From NCBI RefSeq assembly GCF_014250675.1, contig NZ_JACHTG010000004.1, forward strand, positions 372,001-436,000: DNA of 64,000 nucleotides, written 5' to 3'. The notes under the pieces were generated by a model that was not told the DNA's origin, did not search any database, and saw only the letters and a list, made by a program, of their open reading frames with translations. This document shows positions 8,328 to 35,858 of the stretch, one piece after another (within the stretch, counting starts at the first letter, position 1; the number at the start of each line of letters is the position of its first letter). The DNA comes from Cetobacterium sp. 8H (lineage in GTDB: Bacteria > Fusobacteriota > Fusobacteriia > Fusobacteriales > Fusobacteriaceae). The position numbers and the translations under genes are program-made.

Positions 8328-9348
8328 CTATCTCTCCCCTAAGAACCTGTTTCCATAAATAGTTTTTTCCATTTACCATAATTGCGTCTAAACTTAATGA
8401 GTTGTTTATCTTTATAGTTAATCTCTTTCCAAACCTCACTCTATTAATTTTTTTATTTCCTACAACTTTGGAAACATTCTTTTCGTTGATTTCTATACTA
8501 ATTTCACCATCTAAAGAATCAATTTTTTTAAGAAAATCATAATATATCTCTCCTACAACTAGCTCTCTAAAAGCTGGATGGAAAGGTCCCCCAAGTACAT
8601 TTTCATTATCATTTAATTCTTCTGTCGGCTGAAGTCCAACTCTTACAATATTTATATCATAATATTCTAATAACGAATATATTTTTTTACACCTTTGAAC
8701 GGCTTCTTCTATAGAGAGTGGTATATAGCTACCTTTTTTAAACATCTCTGCCATCTCAGTCTCTTTTATAACAAGAGTTGGATATATTCTTGCTATATCT
8801 GGCTTTATTTCCACTGTTTTTAATGCACTCATATAATCGCTTTCTTCAGTTGCACCAGGAAGTCCTAGCATCAACTGTATTCCTAGCTCTATTTTTGCAT
8901 CTTTTATTAGTTTTGAAGCACTATAAACTTTCTCTAAAGGATAAAATCTATGTGTCTTTTTCAAAACGTTTTCATCTAAAGATTGTACTCCTAATTCTAC
9001 TGTTGTTACTCCGTAGCTTACAAGCATATCAACTATTTTTTTATCTATATAATCAGGTCTTGTTGAAAGTCTTATCCCATCAATTAATCCCTTTTTTATA
9101 TATTCATGAACTGTTGATAAATATTGTTTTTGTAAGTCAAAAGAAATTCCTGTAAAAGTTCCACCAAAAAAAGCCACCTCTTTCTTGGATTTTTTTGGAA
9201 GAGTTTTTAAGTATGTTTCTATAATGTTTTTAACATCTTCTAAACTTACATCTGTTTCTCTACCATTTATTTTTTTTTGATTACAAAACACACAATCATT
9301 TGGGCATCCAAAATGACTTATAAATATTGGAATATTATAGTGTTTCAT
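8299..9348 (-). CDS. Radical SAM protein, Elp3-like
   Basis: Radical SAM enzyme with the [4Fe-4S] motif C-x3-C-x2-C in GCPNDCVFCNQ near the N-terminus. SAM-domain landmarks GGTFTG and the later LGVQSLDE follow. It resembles the Elp3-like radical SAM proteins often encoded beside rnc or rng, without an acetyltransferase domain. Substrate is unknown; tRNA modification is plausible from the family resemblance but unproven. It overlaps rnc by 14 bp and rng by 29 bp, a tightly packed block. Confidence 0.85.
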   Translation of the reverse strand: MKHYNIPIFISHFGCPNDCVFCNQKKINGRETDVSLEDVKNIIETYLKTLPKKSKKEVAFFGGTFTGISFDLQKQYLSTVHEYIKKGLIDGIRLSTRPDYIDKKIVDMLVSYGVTTVELGVQSLDENVLKKTHRFYPLEKVYSASKLIKDAKIELGIQLMLGLPGATEESDYMSALKTVEIKPDIARIYPTLVIKETEMAEMFKKGSYIPLSIEEAVQRCKKIYSLLEYYDINIVRVGLQPTEELNDNENVLGGPFHPAFRELVVGEIYYDFLKKIDSLDGEISIEINEKNVSKVVGNKKINRVRFGKRLTIKINNSLSLDAIMVNGKNYLWKQVLRGEIDEPDNNKYE

Positions 9349-18303: not shown

Positions 18304-18527
18304 AACTACCGTATAAAAATACGGTAGTTAATCTGCAATTATATTACAAATTTTGGATAGCACAACACTAGAAACCTCTTTCTAATGACAGTCATATAGA
18401 TATTCTCTATATGCCCAACAAGAATCTTGACTCAATCCCTGTTTCGGCAAACTCCCCTTTCATTTAAGTTCAACGTTTTGTCTAACTCACCTAAATTACT
18501 CTTGTTATTTGCAACCTCTACCTAAAT
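18304..18527 (-). ncRNA. Lysine riboswitch (L-box) with intrinsic terminator
   Basis: In the leftward leader the RNA contains L-box landmarks in order: GGTAGAGGTTGC, AAGAGTA, TGAAAGGGGAGTTTGCCGAA, TTGTTGGGCATAT, GACTGTCA and GTGTTGTGCTATCC. It ends in a strong hairpin AACTACCGTAT/ATACGGTAGTT (18304-18329) followed by U7. Lysine binding would favour the terminator and switch off the transporter gene. Ligand is assigned from motif recognition. Confidence 0.92.
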
Positions 18528-18550
18528 ATTATTTTTTCGAAACTTGTGTT

Positions 18551-32301: not shown

Positions 32302-32330
32302 TTGACATTCTCCTCTTTTTAATATATTAT
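32302..32330 (+). promoter_or_regulatory. Promoter of the GEMM riboswitch transcript
   Basis: TTGACA, 17-bp spacer, TATTAT. Predicted start about 32337, at the very beginning of the aptamer. Confidence 0.75.
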
Positions 32331-32340
32331 TATTGTATAA

Positions 32341-32412
32341 ATCACATATGGCAAAGTAGAGGAAACTCTATGACGCAAAGCTATAGGGTCTTTAAAATGA
32401 CAGCCAGCTGCA
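32341..32412 (+). ncRNA. GEMM-I riboswitch aptamer (c-di-GMP-I class)
   Basis: Carries the conserved GEMM core in order: GGCAAAG, helix P2 with a GAAA tetraloop (GTAGAG-GAAA-CTCTAT), the invariant GACGCAAAGC, then P3 with GGGTCT and ATGACAGCCAGC. These match the c-di-GMP-I class; a cGAMP-sensing GEMM-Ib variant is not excluded. The 3' arm overlaps the 5' arm of the following terminator, so folding of the aptamer should block termination (ON switch). Ligand and direction are inference. Confidence 0.87.
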
Positions 32413-32450
32413 CTTACTTTTTTTTGAAGTAGTTGCAGCTGGCTTTTTTA
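32402..32450 (+). terminator. Expression-platform terminator of the GEMM riboswitch
   Basis: Eleven-bp perfect outer stem AGCCAGCTGCA/TGCAGCTGGCT with a partly paired loop, then T6. The left arm is shared with the aptamer 3' side. Confidence 0.85.
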
Positions 32451-32511
32451 CTTGTATTCAAAAAATTTAATTATATATAAAAATTCTTAAAAATCAGGGG
32501 AGGAAAAAATT

Positions 32512-32961
32512 ATGAAAAAACTAATTACACTTTTATCTTTAACTATGGCTATGACAGCTTTTGGAGCACCTCAAGGAAATACTGAAAAAACTGGGGATAT
32601 GAAGATTACAGCTACAGTTATCACACCTTTAACAGTTGTAGCTCAACCTATGCAATTCAACAAAATTATTAAAGGAACTACTACTCCTGTTACTGCTACT
32701 GCTACTGCTAACTTTTCTATTACAGGGGAACAGGGTGAAACTGTAACTGTTACTATTCCTAACACAGTAACTTTAATTAATAAAGCCAACAATCAAAATC
32801 AACTAGCTGTTGCCATTAGTGGAACTACTGGTGAGCCTACAGCTATGAACTTAGAAACTAGTACAATTAGCATCCCTGTAACTGGGACAATTACAACAAA
32901 CAGCTCTACTGCTACTGGAGAATACGAAGGAAATTTAACAGCTAGAGTTACATATAACTAA
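32512..32961 (+). CDS. Secreted DUF4402-like protein 1
   Basis: Exported 149-aa protein with a signal peptide (residues 1-19, ending AFGAP). The mature part is rich in Thr/Val/Ala and beta-strands. It has the DUF4402-like layout: an opening ITATVITPLTVV, a FNKIIKGTT segment, an FSITGEQGETVTVTIP core, and a closing GEYEGNLTARVTYN strand. Such proteins are fimbrial-subunit-like or surface proteins. It has no Cys. Strong GGGGAGG Shine-Dalgarno. It is directly controlled by the upstream GEMM riboswitch. Role in adhesion or matrix is inference. Confidence 0.8.
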   Translation: MKKLITLLSLTMAMTAFGAPQGNTEKTGDMKITATVITPLTVVAQPMQFNKIIKGTTTPVTATATANFSITGEQGETVTVTIPNTVTLINKANNQNQLAVAISGTTGEPTAMNLETSTISIPVTGTITTNSSTATGEYEGNLTARVTYN

Positions 32962-32983
32962 TTCTTACTAAATATTGATAACA

Positions 32984-33016
32984 AAAGCTGAGAACACAAT
33001 TCTCAGCTTTTTTAAA
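32984..33016 (+). terminator. Attenuator between the two DUF4402-like genes
   Basis: Eleven-bp stem AAAGCTGAGAA/TTCTCAGCTTT with 5-nt loop, then T tract. The second gene has no visible promoter, so partial readthrough probably sets a lower level for it. Confidence 0.75.
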
Positions 33017-33049
33017 TCTTTTAAAACAAATCAAAAGGGGGAGAAATTT

Positions 33050-33514
33050 ATGAAAAATAAAATTCTTATTTTAGCTATACTTTCATCTTTAATATCATTT
33101 TCTAAAGATATCAACACTTCTAACCACGATATGAACATTACTGCTCAAGTTATAAAACCTTTAGCTATTACAAATAGTGGTGATATAAACTTTGGTAAAG
33201 TTATTCAAGGAACTACTGCTACTGCTGCTGACAATCATTTTTTAATCTCTGGAGAACCAAAACAAAATATTAAAATCGATATCAATGGTAGTAATATGAA
33301 TTCTTTTAGTAAAACAGTGACATTAACCCATGATAAACTAAAAACTAAAACTTTAGATGTTAAGTTAACTAATGTTAGTCACGATGGTAACGATACTAAA
33401 CTTGATGAAGATGGAAAGTTTAAATACAAATTTGATGCATCAGTATCACCAACTACTTTAACAGAACCTGGACTTTATAGTGGTATTCTTTCTGTCAAAG
33501 TTACTTTCAATTAA
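33050..33514 (+). CDS. Secreted DUF4402-like protein 2
   Basis: Exported 154-aa paralogue. Signal peptide about 1-18 (ISFSK end). It shares with protein 1 the opening NITAQVIKPLAI, INFGKVIQGTTAT, FLISGEPKQNIKI and a closing GLYSGILSVKVTFN strand. The start at 33050 is chosen because GGGGGAGA lies just upstream and the signal peptide then begins correctly; the frame is open 75 bp more. Same operon as protein 1, after an attenuator. Function unknown. Confidence 0.8.
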   Translation: MKNKILILAILSSLISFSKDINTSNHDMNITAQVIKPLAITNSGDINFGKVIQGTTATAADNHFLISGEPKQNIKIDINGSNMNSFSKTVTLTHDKLKTKTLDVKLTNVSHDGNDTKLDEDGKFKYKFDASVSPTTLTEPGLYSGILSVKVTFN

Positions 33515-33522
33515 ATATAACT

Positions 33523-33567
33523 AAAAAAAGACTGTTTTATCACATGATGATAAAACAGTCTTTTTTT
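33523..33567. terminator. Bidirectional terminator (DUF4402 unit / NCS2 permease)
   Basis: Thirteen-bp stem with core GACTGTTTTATCA and its complement, 5-nt loop, A run on the left and T run on the right. Confidence 0.85.
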
Positions 33568-33571
33568 AATT

Positions 33572-34921
33572 TTAAGCTATCTCTTTACTCAACTCTTTTG
33601 AAATATTTTTCAGATCTATTTCAACATCATCCTTCTTAGGTAAAATTAGATTTAGTAATACTGCAATTGTTCCCGCAACAACGAATCCTGAATCAGTAAA
33701 TACATATCTAATATTTTCTGGGAATGCCTCTATCACTGCTGGCACTAAACCTACCCCGTACCCTAATCCTAAAGAAACCGCTAATATTACAGCATTACGC
33801 CCCTCTAAAGGCTCTTGATTTATTAAGTTTATCCCACTTATAGCTATCATCGAAAAAATCATAACTAAACTTCCTCCTATAACACTTTGAGGAACTAAAG
33901 TAAATGCTGCTGCAACTTTTGGAATAAACGCACTCGCTACTAAAAACATAGCTCCTATACCTACTACAAATCTACTCATAACCCCTGTCATTGCAATTAT
34001 TCCTGTATTTTGACTAAATGATGTTGTCGGCAGCACAGAGAACATTGTTGCAAAAGCACTTCCAACTCCATCACTTATAATTCCACCTTTAAGCTCTTTA
34101 TCCTCTAATTGTCTACCAGCTCCACCTACAGTTATTCCCGACATATCTCCCATAGTTTCTATCGCTGAAACTATAAACATCAATATCATAGGTATTATCG
34201 CTTCTAAATGGAAGCTATATCCAAAACTAAATGGCTTTGGAATACTTATATAATCTGCATTTAAAAGTGGAGCAACATCTATTTTCCCCATGAAAAAGGC
34301 AATTATTGTTCCCACTATTGTTCCTATAAAAATAGCTCCTGAACTTGTAATTCCTTTAGTAAACTCTTTAAAAAATATAACAACTGCTAAAACTAATGTT
34401 CCCAAAATAAGATTTTCTGTCGATGCAAAGTCTGGAGCTCCAAATCCTCCAGCAAAACTATTTATTCCAACTGGTAAAAGATAAAGACCTATAGCTAATA
34501 TAACAGTTCCTGTTACAATTGGTGGGAAAAACTTTCTAATTTTTTTCATATGAAATCCTAAAAAAGCTTCAAAGATACCACCTATAAGAGCAGCTCCTAA
34601 AACCCCTTCATACCCAAACTTACTAGCTATAGAAATCGCTACTGGAGCAAAAGAAAAGTTTGTTCCAACAACAACTGGTAATTTTGCACCCATAGGTCCT
34701 AAAGTATAAACTTGAACAAGAGTGTTTAAACCTGCAACAAGTATAGTTGCTTGTATAAGATTGATCTTCATATCTTGAGCAAATCCAAGTACATTCGCCA
34801 CTATTATTATCGGTGTGATATTCCCCATAAACATCGCCATTATATGTTGTAAACCTAAAGGTATTGCTTTCCCTAACTCTGGTACTCCATTTAAATAATA
34901 AGGTGATCTGTTCTTTTGCAT
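33572..34921 (-). CDS. NCS2-family purine permease
   Basis: Membrane symporter of the nucleobase:cation symporter-2 family, 449 aa with about 14 hydrophobic segments. The opening GLQHIMAMFMGNITP and VVGTNFSFAPVA are family landmarks (the xanthine/uracil permease signature region). A guanine-type riboswitch in its leader indicates a purine substrate (guanine, hypoxanthine or xanthine) rather than uracil. GGAGG eleven bases before the ATG at 34921 decides the start; the frame is open 54 bp more. Confidence 0.92.
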   Translation of the reverse strand: MQKNRSPYYLNGVPELGKAIPLGLQHIMAMFMGNITPIIIVANVLGFAQDMKINLIQATILVAGLNTLVQVYTLGPMGAKLPVVVGTNFSFAPVAISIASKFGYEGVLGAALIGGIFEAFLGFHMKKIRKFFPPIVTGTVILAIGLYLLPVGINSFAGGFGAPDFASTENLILGTLVLAVVIFFKEFTKGITSSGAIFIGTIVGTIIAFFMGKIDVAPLLNADYISIPKPFSFGYSFHLEAIIPMILMFIVSAIETMGDMSGITVGGAGRQLEDKELKGGIISDGVGSAFATMFSVLPTTSFSQNTGIIAMTGVMSRFVVGIGAMFLVASAFIPKVAAAFTLVPQSVIGGSLVMIFSMIAISGINLINQEPLEGRNAVILAVSLGLGYGVGLVPAVIEAFPENIRYVFTDSGFVVAGTIAVLLNLILPKKDDVEIDLKNISKELSKEIA

Positions 34922-34954
34922 TTTAAAATTTCCTCCATTGTTTTTTATTTTTTT

Positions 34955-35100
34955 ATAAAAAAAGCGTAGACTCATGGATAGAATCTACGCTTAAAAAACA
35001 TATTTTTGAGTATGTTTAAAATGCTATTCTACCCATAGCGTCTTCATTTACGGTGAAGACGTAGAAACTATTGGACCATATTTCCAAAAATATATGAGTA
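34955..35100 (-). ncRNA. Guanine-class purine riboswitch with terminator
   Basis: Aptamer at 35030-35100: P1 pairs TACTCATA with TATGGGTA. The junctions contain ATATGGTCC, GTTTCTACG and ACCGTAAAT, and the 3' junction reads GCTATGGG. The C preceding TATGGG is the specificity base of guanine rather than adenine riboswitches. A terminator AAGCGTAGA/TCTACGCTT with U7 follows (34962-34992), so purine should repress. It begins 12 bp after the yebC stop. Confidence 0.93.
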
Positions 35101-35111
35101 TGCTTATTTTT

Positions 35112-35858
35112 TTATAATTGCTCTAAAAGCTCATCTGAAATATCAAAGTTTGAGTAAACATCATTTACGTCATCTAAATCATCTAAAGCTTCATATAGCG
35201 CCATTACTTTTTTAGCTGTATCTAAATCTGTAATTGCCACTTTATTGTCTGGTATCATCGCAACTTCAGCTTCAGTTACAGTGAATCCAGCTTTTTTTAA
35301 TTCTTCAGCCACATTGTTACACTCTGTATATTCAGTGTACACTGTGAACTCTCCATCCTCTTCTATAACGTCATCCGCTCCTGCTTCAAGAGCTGCCATC
35401 ATAAACTCATCATAGTCGATTCCTTCAGAAGGTACTATTATCTCTCCCTTTTTCTGGAACATCCAAGCTACTGCTCCATCAGTTCCTAGATTTCCTCCTC
35501 TTTTAGAGAATGCTGCTCTTACTTCAGAAGCTGATCTATTTTTATTATCTGTTACAACCTCTACTATGAAAGCTGTTCCTGCCGGACCATATCCTTCATA
35601 TCTAATCTCCATATAGTCAACACCTTCAAGCTCTCCAGTTCCTTTCTTGATAGCTCTTTCTAGGTTATCTTTTGGCATGTTAGCTGCTTTTGCTTTCTCT
35701 ATTGCTAATCTAAGTCTTGGATTGAAACCAGGGTCTCCTCCAGCCTCTTTAGCTGCGATTGTCAATTCTTTTCCTAATCTTGTAAAAACTTTTGCTCTTT
35801 TAGCATCTTGAGCACCTTTTCTATGCTTTATATTAGACCATTTACTATGTCCTGCCAC
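35112..35858 (-). CDS. YebC/PmpR/TACO1-family protein
   Basis: Conserved 248-aa protein with MAGHSKWSNIKHRKGAQDAKR at its start. Family members act as transcription regulators or, by recent work, relieve ribosome stalling at proline-rich stretches. Three-domain acidic protein of normal length. It has its own promoter near the end of the GT9 gene. Confidence 0.95.
   Translation of the reverse strand: MAGHSKWSNIKHRKGAQDAKRAKVFTRLGKELTIAAKEAGGDPGFNPRLRLAIEKAKAANMPKDNLERAIKKGTGELEGVDYMEIRYEGYGPAGTAFIVEVVTDNKNRSASEVRAAFSKRGGNLGTDGAVAWMFQKKGEIIVPSEGIDYDEFMMAALEAGADDVIEEDGEFTVYTEYTECNNVAEELKKAGFTVTEAEVAMIPDNKVAITDLDTAKKVMALYEALDDLDDVNDVYSNFDISDELLEQL

Follow-up and report, generated by a model that had tools for sequence, protein, structure and literature searches.

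Cetobacterium is a common fish-gut fusobacterium. In the 64,000-nucleotide stretch of the Cetobacterium sp. 8H genome analysed here (the window), a structured leader RNA precedes two short genes for exported proteins, which raises the question of what signal this RNA senses, in which direction it switches, and what its two genes build at the cell surface. An initial annotation had proposed that a second messenger switches on a fimbria-like surface structure in this fusobacterium. The proposal is supported by the present analysis and can be refined: the messenger is probably c-di-GMP, the structure looks chaperone-usher-like, and the leader is one of four such riboswitches in the genome. We hold it to be quite probable that the leader is a c-di-GMP-sensing ON switch placed before two pilin-subunit genes, whose products are most likely chaperone-usher fimbrial subunits assembled in trans. 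Two of the outcomes named at the outset as refuting the proposal, a failed covariance-model search and a genome devoid of cyclase genes, did not occur. The annotation was thus right on the RNA and near the mark on the proteins. The elements of the locus are listed below, in window coordinates.

32302-32330, + strand: promoter-like element of the sigma-70 type, TTGACA-17-TATTAT (11/12 consensus matches)
32340-32415, + strand: c-di-GMP-I (GEMM-I) riboswitch aptamer (RF01051 covariance model)
32350 (G), 32377 (A) and 32411 (C), + strand: pocket positions of the aptamer, respectively the G20-equivalent, the A47-equivalent and the ligand-pairing C92-equivalent
32402-32450, + strand: intrinsic terminator, with a stem at 32402-32444 followed by a T run; its left arm is the aptamer 3' strand
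32496-32503, + strand: ribosome-binding site AGGGGAGG of gene 1 (direct reading)
32512-32961, + strand: gene 1, secreted DUF4402 protein of 149 aa, chaperone-usher pilin-like (PF14352, modelled fold)
32983-33011, + strand: hairpin and T run between genes 1 and 2 (about -14.7 kcal/mol)
33050-33514, + strand: gene 2, secreted DUF4402-like protein of 154 aa, second pilin-like subunit (PF14352 below cut-off, homology)
33522-33568: terminator-like hairpin separating gene 2 from a convergent permease-like gene, with a T run on each strand

The GEMM-I aptamer recognised in the initial annotation is confirmed by the covariance model: it scores 58.3 bits, well above the gathering score of 35, with E 8e-9 in a search of the whole window. 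It sits in the 5' leader, and the overlapping terminator lies between the promoter and gene 1. The consensus promoter claimed earlier is also found, a match of 11/12 being frequent by chance in the A+T-rich DNA of the window; orthologous leaders from other genomes of the genus carry a similar promoter element at the same place. The pocket residues (G20, A47 and C92 equivalents) are of the c-di-GMP type. This numbering is used by analogy with Vc2, and C32411 is taken to correspond to the ligand-pairing C of that RNA.

Both open reading frames begin with a signal-peptide-like N-terminus and have a good ribosome-binding site. Gene 1 passes the DUF4402 profile (PF14352) with 37.8 bits for a cut-off of 25.2, and gene 2 remains just under it with 22.2 bits. 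Gene 2 is a clear homologue of gene 1 and of the pilin-like proteins of relatives and is thus related to DUF4402 proteins, though no formal family member. The two exported DUF4402-like proteins announced earlier were thus recovered. The hairpin between the two genes, a detail missed in the first reading, has counterparts in some orthologous loci (G005, G008, G010). It is a possible attenuator that would lower gene 2 expression, perhaps setting a major-to-minor subunit ratio. On the other side of the convergent hairpin, the permease-like gene (33572-34975) has a purine riboswitch upstream (35016-35117, - strand), and a lysine riboswitch is found at 18350-18528 (- strand) of the window.

What these proteins build was addressed through an AlphaFold model of the mature gene 1 protein alone, with 34 homologues in the alignment (pLDDT 94). 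The structure prediction proposed earlier as a check gave a pilin-like fold: the best Foldseek matches in the PDB are CfaB, CsuA/B, CS17, Caf1 and Fim/Pap subunits, and the first 48 matches are nearly all chaperone-usher subunits, with TM-scores that are moderate, mostly about 0.4-0.6, for a type of fold (Ig-like) that is widespread. Searches of the PDB with pilin and usher sequence profiles yielded no significant match; CsuE and the F1 antigen were among the weak pilin matches. The earlier comparison with chaperone-independent pilins does not stand, given the fold of gene 1 and the presence of chaperone and usher genes in the genome. A conserved segment, MxIxAxVIxPL, lies ahead of the first modelled strand and is a possible counterpart of the N-terminal donor-strand extension of chaperone-usher pilins, with its alternating hydrophobic residues. 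In chaperone-usher pilins, the chaperone-contact pattern combines an aromatic residue in the penultimate position with a Gly roughly 14 residues before the C-terminus; the gene 1 protein, which ends in GEYEGNLTARVTYN, has Tyr in the penultimate position and Gly 14 residues before its C-terminus, and the pattern recurs in 54/79 homologues. Across the pilin-like homologues, conservation peaks in the N-terminal segment and in the C-terminal strand and is lowest in the middle, the pattern expected of proteins whose ends are used in assembly and whose middle lies exposed. A narrower pilin alignment matched only Cetobacterium records in the sequence collection. Adjoining pilin-like paralogues at another locus (L059:7994-8419 and 8467-8919) share nearly identical first 40 residues and have divergent middle parts, which suggests a recent duplication followed by diversification of the exposed part.

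The moderate TM-scores and the wide distribution of Ig-like folds also leave room for another reading, in which the riboswitch is a real ON switch and the proteins serve as matrix proteins or as Ig-like adhesins, either free or anchored, without assembly by an usher. The genomic setting bears on this point in both directions. The genome contains four RF01051 copies, namely the one in the window and three more, at the following loci.

L014: lone DUF4402-like gene, L014:9217-9705, - strand
L015: chaperone, pilin-like protein, chaperone, 890-aa usher-like protein, and further genes
L016, genes 1-3: HD-GYP phosphodiesterase with a solute-binding domain, solute-binding protein, DUF4402 protein
L016, genes 4-6: 866-aa usher-like protein, MORN protein, PapD-like chaperone

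The PapD_N profile matches three proteins of the genome, one of them above cut-off. There are three usher homologues; the third, at C4:457029-459578 (- strand), has no RF01051 nearby. The usher-like proteins of 866-890 aa have no usher family among their Pfam or NCBIfam matches and are recognised by fold: the model (pLDDT 79) has only FimD or PapC among its first 18 structural matches (best E 9e-24). No chaperone or usher gene adjoins the gene 1/gene 2 pair, so that assembly would have to take place in trans, the chaperones and ushers of the other loci presumably acting on the two proteins. That the pair, like the lone DUF4402 gene behind another riboswitch of this genome, stands apart from such genes speaks for adhesins or matrix proteins. 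However, nearly all the best structural matches are chaperone-usher subunits, the conserved ends and variable middle are as would be expected of subunits joined end to end, and homologous pilin-like proteins do occur in operons that begin with the riboswitch and include usher and chaperone genes. Moreover, in the family, DUF4402 never occurs without an usher homologue (28/28 genomes, compared with 12/33 of those lacking DUF4402, a count that treats related genomes as independent and so overstates significance, like the other co-occurrence statistics given below). Assembly without an usher is thus unlikely, and fimbrial subunits of the chaperone-usher type remain the preferred reading.

The association between riboswitch and pilin-like genes extends well beyond this locus. 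In the genus, 27/29 DUF4402 matches have an RF01051 riboswitch on the same strand no more than 6.5 kb upstream of them, for 0.7% expected; this count rests on Pfam matches, since our own iterative pilin profiles merged classes and were left out of the counts. Tandem DUF4402-like genes behind the same riboswitch are present in four other genomes of the genus (G005, G008, G009, G010). Judged by sequence, the proteins encoded behind other riboswitches of the genus presumably include a small helix-turn-helix protein, large surface proteins and proteins of the solute-binding/GGDEF kind. RF01051 is found above cut-off in 36/61 genomes of the family, all 36 having GGDEF proteins, and in 0/17 of the family genomes that lack GGDEF; one further family genome combines a sub-threshold match with GGDEF. 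In the other families of the order, RF01051 was found in 0/35 genomes.

The direction of switching can be predicted from the overlap between aptamer and terminator, which the initial annotation had rightly pointed out: the stem 32402-32444 begins within the aptamer (32340-32415), its left arm starting at AGCCAGCUGC on the aptamer 3' side, and C32411, the ligand-pairing C, pairs with a G in the terminator. Since both structures use the same strand, they are mutually exclusive. Their competition was assessed by pairing energies and not by co-transcriptional measurement: the terminator stem reaches -27.3 kcal/mol, and the hairpin that remains once the aptamer holds the bases up to 32411 only -3.9 kcal/mol. 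The design is that of an ON switch, because bound ligand keeps the shared strand from the terminator; binding of c-di-GMP is thus predicted to block termination. The same arrangement is widespread. The terminator starts inside the aptamer in 53/58 riboswitches of the genus and 36/73 elsewhere in the family (89/131 in total), compared with 5% when the downstream sequence is shuffled, and in 86/89 overlapping riboswitches the terminator includes the ligand C in one of its base pairs. Where the overlapped pair involves the variable pyrimidine of AGYUGC, C is paired with G in 13 cases and U with A in 25; between the window copy and its L073 orthologue, two terminator pairs show double changes, in a comparison of two sequences only. 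In the pilM ON switch of Geobacter, the terminator likewise shares an aptamer strand and sequesters the ligand-pairing C (PMC9262584). An OFF switch, in which ligand binding would favour termination as in Cd1 of Clostridioides difficile, is known for other c-di-GMP-I riboswitches (PMC9262584) and was rejected here as highly improbable, because the common strand makes terminator and aptamer exclude each other and the leader has no separate antiterminator between them.

The ligand of this ON switch is most likely c-di-GMP, as predicted from the G at the G20-equivalent position and from the enzymes encoded in the genome. An A at position 20 (G20A) lets GEMM-I RNAs bind cGAMP (PMC6274999), and the window aptamer does not have it. 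In agreement with the earlier statement that no GGDEF or EAL gene lies in the window, neither domain has a match there; both are present elsewhere. The genome search for GGDEF proteins suggested with the annotation returned five matches, and the genome also has three matches to EAL and four to HD-GYP. One HD-GYP domain, a candidate c-di-GMP phosphodiesterase, lies just past the window end (C4:436007-436474, - strand), at a distance of about 31.6 kb from the riboswitch. In the five GGDEF proteins the motif reads GGDEI, GGDEF, GGDEF, SGDEF and SGDEF, and the Asp of the substrate site GHxxGD is kept in 5/5. The published rule for c-di-GMP synthases combines [G/A/S]G[D/E]E[F/Y] with Asp at the substrate position, a Ser there denoting the Hypr type (PMC6456294). 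By this rule, 4/5 of these proteins look like c-di-GMP synthases and 0/5 like Hypr cGAMP synthases; the SMODS profile, which covers one CD-NTase family, has no match in the genome. The initial annotation had allowed c-di-GMP or cGAMP, of which the former is retained. Sensing of 3',3'-cGAMP, as by GEMM-Ib RNAs, is very hard to sustain and was rejected: these RNAs are close kin of GEMM-I, undivided from it in Rfam, and another riboswitch of this genome (C4:213232) does have A at the G20-equivalent, but the window aptamer has G, none of the five GGDEF proteins has the Ser that takes the place of this Asp in Hypr enzymes (PMC6456294), and a SMODS match is absent.

The riboswitch with A (L016:9733-9808, i.e., C4:213232-213307, - strand) precedes the HD-GYP/usher operon; orthologues of this operon elsewhere in the genus carry G at the same position, and no Hypr enzyme was found in its own genome. 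Among the 131 riboswitches of the family, the G20-equivalent is G in 114, A in 13 and, unexpectedly, C in four (L048, L069, L094, L139). A search for c-di-GMP-II riboswitches gave ten matches, treated as false since all were below cut-off and the one that was inspected lies in what we take to be 23S rRNA.

The computations show the aptamer, a terminator that overlaps it and is conserved in doing so, genes for cyclases, modelled folds of the pilin and usher types, and the co-occurrence of these elements. How the RNA responds to its ligand, which way it switches, and that the subunits are assembled in trans into fibres is what we infer, as follows. RNA polymerase would start at about 32337. When c-di-GMP is scarce, the aptamer 3' strand AGCCAGCUGCA would pair with the downstream UGCAGCUGGCU, and the terminator would form before gene 1. 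With c-di-GMP bound, the 3' strand and the ligand-pairing C would stay in the aptamer, leaving a weak hairpin through which the genes could be transcribed. Both proteins would then be exported and, most likely, assembled at the surface as chaperone-usher fimbrial subunits, with chaperones and ushers supplied by the other c-di-GMP riboswitch operons of the genome. Since subunits and assembly machinery both stand behind c-di-GMP riboswitches, the messenger is expected to raise them together; as the same wiring recurs among relatives, a full set of fibres for attachment is probably turned on by a single signal.

A broader proposal, which we put forward tentatively and at somewhat less than even confidence, is that in Fusobacteriaceae c-di-GMP riboswitches act as a main control over a chaperone-usher system that is divergent and had gone unrecognised. 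Pilin cassettes that stand alone, like the one in the window, would supply alternative, fast-diverging subunits to machinery encoded elsewhere, one signal would co-induce them all, and the ligand specificity of single aptamers would drift (17/131 have A or C at the G20-equivalent). On the main reading, DUF4402, a domain of unknown function, gains a concrete and testable role as a chaperone-usher-type subunit in Fusobacteriaceae, c-di-GMP sensing by a riboswitch is tied directly to chaperone-usher fimbriae, and a surface-attachment regulon is predicted in Cetobacterium. The titles and abstracts on which our literature survey largely relied contained no report of a c-di-GMP riboswitch directly controlling chaperone-usher fimbriae, no mention of DUF4402 and no c-di-GMP work on Cetobacterium. 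Neither the riboswitch class nor the ON layout is new; the proposed direct control by such a riboswitch of a chaperone-usher system that is divergent and includes stand-alone pilin cassettes, in Fusobacteriaceae, appears undescribed, as does a role for DUF4402.

How this locus relates to known systems can be stated as follows. The window RNA shares with the RF01051 c-di-GMP-I (GEMM-I) class its aptamer sequence and structure, pocket positions and place in the 5' leader, without essential difference, and in this genus most copies have the terminator built on the aptamer 3' strand. The Cd1 riboswitch of C. difficile belongs to the same aptamer class and has the same ligand but differs from the window leader in that it acts as an OFF switch, can form its aptamer and terminator at the same time, and has flagella under its control (PMC9262584). 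The pilM riboswitch of Geobacter metallireducens has the same ON layout, a sequestered ligand C and pilus genes under control (PMC9262584). It senses cGAMP, however, and serves another kind of pilus locus, whereas here G20 points to c-di-GMP and the subunits are chaperone-usher-like. The archaic and alpha-type chaperone-usher pili, such as Csu of Acinetobacter and CFA/I of enterotoxigenic E. coli, resemble the present system in the modelled subunit fold, the PapD-like chaperones and the usher fold found in the same regulon. Compared with Csu and CFA/I, the usher homologues here are missed by Pfam and NCBIfam, the subunits are DUF4402 proteins, control is exerted by a riboswitch, and the pilin genes also stand alone.
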